A stretch of 64,000 nucleotides of DNA. Source: Halomicroarcula saliterrae (lineage in GTDB: Archaea > Halobacteriota > Halobacteria > Halobacteriales > Haloarculaceae). The stretch spans positions 124,001-188,000 of the forward strand of contig NZ_JAMQON010000006.1 of NCBI RefSeq assembly GCF_031624395.1, given 5' to 3'. The position numbers and the translations under genes were made by a program. This document shows, in pieces, positions 13,757 to 15,597 of the stretch. Each line of letters begins with the position of its first letter. Within the stretch, counting starts at the first letter, position 1. The notes beneath the pieces were generated by a model. The model ran no database searches and was not told the origin of the DNA. It saw only the letters and a list, made by a program, of their open reading frames with translations.

Positions 13757-14170
13757 ATCTGTTACGTCTGTCTGTCATAGCTGTCTGTAACGACTGTCTG
13801 GTATGAGACGCTGTATCTGCCCGATGTCGGGCGACTTTCGCGACGCGACGGTGTCACAGCGGATGGTCAGGATGGTCTGGAACCGATATCTGTCTTGGAT
13901 AGCTGACCGAGATTTCTGTAACAGCTCACTGTCATAGTTATCTGTTATCGGCTTCTGTCACAGAAATCTGTATCGGCTGTTCGGGGCCGATGGCTGTAAC
14001 AGCGCTCCGGGGTGAACGAGGGCTCGAACCGAGTACCGGAGCTGTCGAGGGCAAAACCGCAGTACTGCAGACGTTACAGACGAAAATAACAGACGAATGT
14101 TACAGACTACTATAACAGATAACTGGCACAAATGTCTGACACAGATTTATGCGACAGGCACGCAACAGAG
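13757..14170. repeat. Bidirectional TCTGTnA repeat array before parA (candidate parS/operator)
   Basis: The gap between the channel gene and parA contains at least twelve copies of a 7-9 base element. Rightward copies (TCTGT followed by tA, cA or aA) occur near 13758, 13771, 13784, 13915, 13928, 13941, 13954, 13967 and 13993. Leftward copies (TnACAG or TAACAG) occur near 14073, 14087, 14098, 14112 and 14136. Several are palindromic (TTCTGTCACAGA). A stretch of about 70 bases without copies separates the two orientations. Placement next to a ParA gene suggests a centromere-like site or autoregulatory operators. Confidence 0.6.
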
Positions 14171-14176
14171 TGGCAT

Positions 14177-15163
14177 ATGATAACGGCCGTTGTGTACTCG
14201 GAGTCGGGGGGGACGTACAAGACGACGATGACCGCCAACCTCGCGGTCGCGCTCCACCGCATGGGGCTGAAGACGCTCGTGCTGGACCTCGACCCGCAGG
14301 AGGGAAATCTCACGAGCCTCTTCGAGGCCGGTGGTCGCCGGAGTGACCCGGACGCGGACAATCTGGTCAAGCACATCCTCGACATGCCCGATGGCTCCTT
14401 CGACGACCTCGTCGAGACGACGGCCGAGGGCGTCGATATCGTGCCGAGCCACGACATGCTGGGCGATTTCACGTCGAATCTGGAACAGAAGATATCCTAC
14501 GAGACGGGCATGCAGAACATGAGCCGCGAGGAGTACCCCCGGTTCGAGCTCCTGTACGACCTGCTGTGGGAGACCGAGGGGGTACAGGAGGAGTACGACG
14601 CCGTCCTCATCGACCCCAACGCCCGCGCCGAGGACCTGCTGTACAACGCTATCTTCGCCCTCCGGACGCTCGTCGCCCCGGTCAAACCCGCGGGCAAGGG
14701 GAACCTGAGTCTCGACGGGCTGGGCGAGCTCGTGGGGAACATGGAGCGCCAGCTCGACATCGAGGTCGGCCTCTCCTGTGTGGTCCCCTCGGGCGTCGGG
14801 CAGACCAACGCTCACCAGCAGTACCGCGAGCAGTTCGAGAACACGCCGGAGTTCGCCACGCCGGTCAGTATCGGGAACCGCGAGAGCCTGATGGACGCGA
14901 TGTGGGAGGCCCGCGGGTCGGCGTTCAAGGTGGTCGAGGAGCGCTGGAAGACCTTCGAGCGCGACGGGGAGATGGTGAGCGAGCCGGGCCAGCGCCGGGT
15001 CCGGGACCGGGAGATCGAGACGCTGCGGAAGCTGTACGCGCTGGCCTACTTCATCGCGACCGAGACGTTCGACGCCGACGTCGACCCGCTGCTAGACGTC
15101 ACGGTCGACGGCGAGACGCGTCGGATAGACCTCCGCGAGACGCGGGAGGTGACGACGGCATGA
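14177..15163 (+). CDS. ParA/Soj-family partition ATPase
   Basis: 328 residues from the ATG of MITAVVYSE. It has a ParA P-loop, here SESGGTYKTT (residues 8-17), with the nucleotide-contacting lysine K15, then LVLDLDPQEGNLT (switch I/Walker A' region) and a Walker B at EYDAVLIDPNA. The signature lysine of deviant Walker A boxes (KGG) is replaced by serine and the usual GK by YK. The C-terminal half is longer than in minimal Soj. An alternative ATG lies 15 codons upstream at 14132, inside the repeat array. The stop overlaps the next start. Confidence 0.85.
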   Translation: MITAVVYSESGGTYKTTMTANLAVALHRMGLKTLVLDLDPQEGNLTSLFEAGGRRSDPDADNLVKHILDMPDGSFDDLVETTAEGVDIVPSHDMLGDFTSNLEQKISYETGMQNMSREEYPRFELLYDLLWETEGVQEEYDAVLIDPNARAEDLLYNAIFALRTLVAPVKPAGKGNLSLDGLGELVGNMERQLDIEVGLSCVVPSGVGQTNAHQQYREQFENTPEFATPVSIGNRESLMDAMWEARGSAFKVVEERWKTFERDGEMVSEPGQRRVRDREIETLRKLYALAYFIATETFDADVDPLLDVTVDGETRRIDLRETREVTTA

Positions 15164-15597
15164 CCAACTTCAAGTCCGGCTCCGGGAATCTCGATTTCGG
15201 CGGTGACAGCGACGAGGAGTCGACTGGCGAGCGGGCCGACACCGAGGTGGCGGGTAGCTCGACGGCCGACCCGGACGGGAGCGAGACCGCCGGAGCGACG
15301 GTCGACGGGGACGCGACCGACGACCGGCCATCGACGCGGCGGTCGGGCGGCGAGACCTACCCGTACTTCGTCCGACGGAACAACGTCGGCGACGAGCGGG
15401 ACACCCGCCTGGAGATTCACGTCCGTGACAAGGTGGCTGACCAAGAAGCGGGGTTCCGCCACGACCTCGCCGAACAGCTCGGCGCGAGCGACGTCTCGAA
15501 GACCGACGCCCGGGAGTTCGCCCTGCTTGCGGCCTTCGAACACCCCGAACGGGTCGCCGAGCTCATGCGCGAGGAGGGGTTCGACTCGCTGGGGTGA
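15160..15597 (+). CDS. Putative ParA partner protein (DNA-binding/adaptor candidate)
   Basis: 145 residues; its ATG overlaps the parA stop (ATGA), so the two are translationally coupled. The first 60 residues are acidic and disordered-looking (Asp/Glu/Ser/Thr). The second half, from ETYPYFVRRNN to the end, is ordered: a strand (RLEIHVRDKV) and two or three helices (FRHDLAEQLG, AREFALLAAFEHPERVAELM). I recognise no ParB/Noc motif. By position it is the likely centromere-binding or adaptor partner of the upstream ATPase. Confidence 0.55.
   Translation: MTNFKSGSGNLDFGGDSDEESTGERADTEVAGSSTADPDGSETAGATVDGDATDDRPSTRRSGGETYPYFVRRNNVGDERDTRLEIHVRDKVADQEAGFRHDLAEQLGASDVSKTDAREFALLAAFEHPERVAELMREEGFDSLG

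Follow-up and report, generated by a model that had tools for sequence, protein, structure and literature searches.

Halomicroarcula saliterrae carries a dense array of short repeats in front of a gene encoding a ParA-type ATPase, which raises the question of what these repeats are for and which protein would read them. The initial annotation, covering the 64,000-nucleotide stretch of DNA analyzed here (hereafter the window), described them as a mirror image of dispersed TCTGTnA elements and proposed a centromere-like site or a set of operators next to parA and its coupled partner gene. We consider it likely, judging from sequence, that the array is both centromere and operator of a haloarchaeal partition module similar to type Ib ParABS systems, with the small second protein of the operon serving as centromere-binding protein and autorepressor. 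The sequence-level steps toward this reading are the fixed pitch and palindromic unit of the array, its occurrence only once on its replicon, its conservation, the switching of its code between subfamilies, the different codes of co-resident systems, and its overlap with the parA promoter.

The unit of the array is a 13-bp palindrome with the consensus RTCTGTWACAGAY, and the TCTGTnA elements are its half-sites. Using a PWM trained on 45 orthologous loci from which the window was excluded, we detected ca. 18 units between positions 13757 and 14159, arranged at exact 13-bp steps within three blocks of 3 + 8 + 7 units, so that dispersed elements in mirror image capture only half of the picture. 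The distal block (13757..13795) comprises three units at 13757, 13770, and 13783 with PWM scores of 9.9–11.7, while the middle block (13875..14004) has units at 13875, 13888, 13914, 13927, 13940, 13953, 13966, and 13992 and holds the 13-bp register with two degenerate positions. Several copies had been noted as palindromic, and this extends to the whole unit, with near-perfect examples in TTCTGTAACAGCT at 13914 and TTCTGTCACAGAA at 13953. Seven contiguous units (14069, 14082, 14095, 14108, 14121, 14134, and 14147) form the proximal block (14069..14159); no strand is assigned to any of the blocks. The one gap of ca. 70 bases that had been described corresponds to an empty stretch of ca. 64 bp between the middle and proximal blocks (14005..14068), but a second empty stretch at ca. 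13796–13874 separates the distal from the middle block and makes the array three-parted instead of two-sided. This second gap had been overlooked together with the 13-bp pitch and the extension of the last block into the parA promoter. Strict TCTGTNA copies point rightward at six positions left of the 64-bp gap (13758, 13771, 13784, 13915, 13941, and 13954) and leftward at four positions right of it (14074, 14087, 14100, and 14113), with one further, palindromic copy on the left side; the original count of about nine rightward and about five leftward copies holds when one mismatch is allowed.

Chance is a poor explanation for this arrangement. The 420 bp before parA contain 11 of the 30 strict TCTGTNA copies that the 64-kb window has on its two strands as well as 16 PWM sites (score ≥6) and 10 pairs of sites spaced by exactly 13 bp, compared to means of 0.67 sites and 0.002 pairs (maxima 4 and 1) in 1,000 dinucleotide-preserving shuffles of the same region. 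The contig of the window (C6) measures 236,344 bp and has identical 127-bp ends, indicating that it is circular. In a PWM scan of this whole replicon, all 10 exact 13-bp site pairs fell into the array and 0 elsewhere, and two TCTGT cores 13 bp apart occur at nine places genome-wide, seven of them in the array. The motif is thus not equally dense across the plasmid, on which we found no second array and only an isolated three-unit site at C6:224.6 kb. This intergenic site (GCTGTAACGTCCG TCTGTAACAGATA TCTGTAATCACTT at G000:C6:224613-224650, locus L079) lies 86 kb from the array and contains the best-scoring single unit of the replicon.

The same 13-bp array is kept in 43 of 45 near orthologous parA loci of named haloarchaea, and this conservation, together with its uniqueness on the plasmid, supports the original proposal of a centromere-like site and/or operators beside parA and its coupled partner. 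Autocorrelation of the sequence upstream of parA is strongest at lag 13 or 26 in 43/45 loci (z mostly 4–12), compared to values near zero in downstream control regions of the orthologous loci. Successive sites are spaced by exactly 13 bp in 330 cases across the 45 orthologous loci, followed in frequency by 26, 39, and 52 bp, with a median of 13 sites per locus (range 5–22). A gap of at least 45 bp precedes the proximal block in 40 of 46 loci (the 45 orthologues plus the window), and Haloarcula rara (L095) as the closest relative shares the three-block layout of the window. We rejected the idea that the blocks are set apart by a constant length or phase, given that gap sizes vary from 48 to 370 bp (median 84.5) and are multiples of 13 in only 9 of 40 cases. 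As to the mirror image, 32 of the 43 loci examined have left-strong distal and right-strong proximal units (p about 3e-4 in a Wilcoxon test, kinship ignored), with the window among the most extreme of them. Yet it is not the essence of the array, because the elements are palindromes and the polarity of their half-sites is only a tendency over these 43 loci, so that we rejected mirror-image orientation as a defining feature.

Of 146 genomes in the window's order, 70 contain homologues of the partner protein. Such homologues also occur in 108 plasmid records that span about 34 genera, with pHS3 and pNRC200 of Halobacterium salinarum among them, and the par family is plasmid-borne. Among 295 genomes sampled across the phylum, 29 match the partner profile, all of them in the window's own order, and no member of the family was seen outside haloarchaea in this sample. 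Phages were rejected as relatives, since their ParA matches were all weak, as in phiCh1, which has its own ParA. One draft genome (G069) contains two near-type loci, both with parA genes broken by assembly gaps.

The parA gene (14177..15163, forward strand) encodes a ParA-type ATPase of 328 aa that matches Pfam AAA_31 with 62.8 bits (cut-off 27), and all orthologues use the ATG at 14177 and not the longer open reading frame start at 14132. It has no N-terminal HTH extension, as the AAA_31 match starts at residue 5 and the P-loop at residue 10. Its Walker A motif reads ESGGTYKTT and is devoid of the signature lysine of the deviant Walker A motif (KGGxxK[ST]), which is replaced by Ser or Ala across this ParA family: among 88 members checked, all 45 near ones have ESGGT[YF]KT and all 43 distant ones E[AS]GGxxK[ST]. 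Absence of the signature lysine is unusual among ParA/MinD ATPases.

The start of the partner gene (15160..15597, forward strand) overlaps the parA stop codon by 4 bp and encodes a protein of 145 aa that belongs to a conserved family and is predicted to bind the centromere. In the loci listed, the partner measures 127–174 aa, and its start is almost always located no more than ca. 4 bp from the parA stop. It has no Pfam or NCBIfam match, including none to a ParB-CTPase or HTH domain, and sequence-profile searches against Pfam and PDB matched no known DNA-binding family. In all members, an (M/F)KxGxG...F motif at the N-terminus is followed by a variable, acidic linker and then by a C-terminal domain of ca. 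78 aa. The N-terminal motif, in full (M/F)KxGxGxxxF (15160..15204, forward strand), is predicted to be a ParA-contacting peptide; its residues K5, G7, G9, and F13 are invariant in A3, and the same motif recurs in distant subfamilies. For the C-terminal domain (YPYFVRR...RLEIHVRD...KTDAREFAL...; 15358..15594, forward strand), an alternating x-h-x-h-R pattern followed by two helices and a KTDxREA motif suggests a dimeric DNA-binding domain resembling the ribbon-helix-helix fold, and the hydrophobic moment favors a strand at the expected place in 24 of 39 partner sequences. AlphaFold monomers (two models) show two or three helices with pLDDT above 90 and draw the supposed strand in a long helix at lower confidence, and Foldseek/VIA-align with these models gave no significant fold match. 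A ribbon-helix-helix fold is likely by sequence pattern, with support from neither AlphaFold nor databases. Together with the missing match to a known family and the absent signature lysine, the helix that AlphaFold places at the strand counts against the reading of the locus as centromere and operator. Many RefSeq haloarchaeal plasmids have the partner gene annotated as "acyl-CoA dehydrogenase", apparently a propagated misannotation that is corrected here.

The initial annotation was right that such an array does not match the 14–16 base palindromes of parS, and it fits the type of array bound by small centromere-binding proteins (type Ib/II). Like the locus studied here, the type Ib systems pSM19035 delta-omega-parS and TP228 ParFGH with their ribbon-helix-helix ParB proteins combine a short ParA without N-terminal HTH, a small protein, here a predicted one, that binds the centromere and is encoded directly downstream, and a series of short repeats that precedes parA and can also serve as operator. 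The haloarchaeal loci share with them the ParA without N-terminal extension, the small downstream gene in the same operon, and tandem repeats overlapping the promoter, and the order of tail motif, acidic linker, and C-terminal domain in the partner is similar to ParG-type proteins. They differ in replacing the 7-bp heptads by two to four blocks of 13-bp palindromes repeated every 13 bp, and in having a predicted centromere-binding protein without detectable sequence relation to any ribbon-helix-helix family, a ParA without signature lysine, and an archaeal host. Given the missing lysine and the unconfirmed ribbon-helix-helix fold, we regard the module as a variant of type Ib and not as a plain member. 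In pSM19035, contiguous repeats work in either orientation, and it takes at least four of them to activate the ATPase fully (PMC9499535).

Type II ParMRC systems such as ParR/parC of C. perfringens likewise use direct-repeat arrays that are bound by a small ParR, but their motor is the actin-like ParM and not a ParA-type P-loop ATPase as found here; about ten ParR/parC specificity families decide which of these plasmids coexist (PMC9426499). Canonical bacterial ParABS systems also pair a ParA ATPase with a site-specific partner, yet theirs is a CTPase ParB with HTH acting at a 14–16 bp parS, whereas the haloarchaeal partner has neither ParB-CTPase nor HTH domain and faces a 13-bp repeat array; according to a recent survey, chromosomal ParABS is generally absent from archaea (PMC12704722). 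The SegAB and AspA-ParB-ParA systems of Sulfolobales are likewise archaeal segregation cassettes with a ParA-type ATPase. Both SegB and AspA have other sites and folds.

How tightly the repeats are linked to the partner is apparent from more distant subfamilies (ParA identity ca. 35–42%), most of whose arrays retain the 13-bp pitch with different palindromes, including TATAGCTATA, AGTnTAACT(A), TTAGCTAA, ATCTTAGAT, CAGTAATACTG, and a TTCAA type; a further code of the TTGAACCA type was spotted by eye. At least seven partner subfamilies each have their own 13-bp motif, and this motif tracks the predicted strand of the partner (RLEIHVR, VPxFLR, xQYFLR, RPxFLR, TVQLHLQ, VHQLFV, and RLTFFVH). Scanning each group of loci with all motifs gave a strongly diagonal picture of 4.4–7.9 own-motif sites with an exact 13-bp neighbor per locus compared to 0–2.0 for other motifs. 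For the distant matrices, which started from seeds chosen by eye and had the scored loci as training set, the diagonal values are partly circular, unlike the near-zero off-diagonal ones and the spacings. Repeats also differ between co-resident systems in nine genomes that have several of them (five in G020 and four each in G131 and G057). In the one clear case examined of a second copy of the same type (G105), parA and the array have been lost next to an insertion. Another locus, L174 (G020:C3), has upstream tandem repeats of 26 bp (ACTAATGATAATTACTACTATCCCCT) that equal two 13-bp steps and lacks the GTCTGAC box described below.

We propose that one dimer of the C-terminal domain of the partner would sit on each palindrome and that neighboring dimers would stack along the block; 13 bp amount to ca. 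1.25 helical turns, so that four units make up ca. five turns. The N-terminal peptide with its invariant lysine, held on the acidic linker, might contact ParA and stimulate its ATPase activity, the plasmid could then be pulled along nucleoid-bound ParA, and the subfamily-specific code would set plasmid compatibility. Tentatively, and with the odds rather against it, these loci might even represent a partition class specific to haloarchaea in which a ParA without signature lysine cooperates with a protein that is neither ribbon-helix-helix nor HTH and coats palindromes at 13-bp pitch, with interchangeable codes sorting co-resident megaplasmids into compatibility groups.

Close to parA, a GTCTGAC box (14134..14140, forward strand) is located 43 bp before the start codon and conserved at 41–47 bp in most loci (39/45 in the near family and 28/42 in distant families). 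It is followed by a TATA-like TTTATG element (14146..14151, forward strand), which lies among shared columns near the start codon across loci and is centered ca. 28 bp before the ATG, a distance that, given haloarchaeal promoter spacing, suggests that the parA transcript is probably leaderless. The box stands ca. 6 bp before the TATA-like element, is common to subfamilies with quite different repeat sequences, and might be bound by another factor or represent a special element of the core promoter. Since the last two units of the proximal block overlie this core promoter, their occupancy should shut it, and parA would be repressed by a proximal block that keeps out TBP/TFB. The same overlap would suit an array that is nothing but the autoregulatory operator of the parA operon, with the centromere elsewhere or the operon doing another job such as positioning other cargo, and a few distant loci with merely one to three units beside the promoter (e.g., L061, L065, L068, and L075) would indeed fit an operator better than a centromere. 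We nevertheless consider this unlikely, because ca. 400 bp of sequence, with 13 units in the median locus and most of them far upstream of the promoter in separate blocks, exceed what a repressor needs, the 236-kb replicon offers no array besides this one and the isolated three-unit site, and known type Ib systems combine operator and centromere.

Short direct repeats on a plasmid adjoining a maintenance gene are also reminiscent of the iterons bound by the initiator at a plasmid replication origin, but the Orc1/Cdc6 gene of the replicon (C6:58.2-59.3 kb) is ca. 79 kb away from the array, the orthologous loci read have integrases or unrelated genes and no annotated replication gene at their flanks, and the repeat code varies with the ParA partner, which makes this explanation highly improbable. 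It is just as hard to believe that the arrays are bound by a recombinase or a host regulator that has nothing to do with the partner, as the shared GTCTGAC box, where another factor may therefore act, and the integrases annotated upstream in several loci could suggest. A factor of the host would have no use for a separate code for every par subfamily in the same cell, and both the cross-scan and the co-resident systems link the code to the par operon.

Archaeal plasmid centromeres have been named as an open question (PMC5120986). Read as the centromere and operator of a type Ib-like module, the array would provide a sequence-level answer for haloarchaeal plasmids that comprises the place of the centromere, the repeat unit and the step at which it recurs, and at least seven codes, each going with a partner subfamily. 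We found no earlier description of the repeats, the motifs, or haloarchaeal ParA centromeres in the open-licence literature, and they may be described elsewhere. In Haloferax or Halobacterium, it becomes possible to test for centromere activity, for the specificity of the partner, and for incompatibility between plasmids, and possible uses include stable haloarchaeal vectors and plasmid typing.

Two observations concern the surroundings of the par locus on other plasmids. Of the five annotated plasmids read, three (L164 on Halanaeroarchaeum pHSR2-01, L163, and L166) have a divergent site-specific integrase gene upstream of the array, and this gene could encode a multimer resolvase. On pHS3 of H. 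salinarum R1 (L165), the par locus directly adjoins a gas-vesicle gene cluster.
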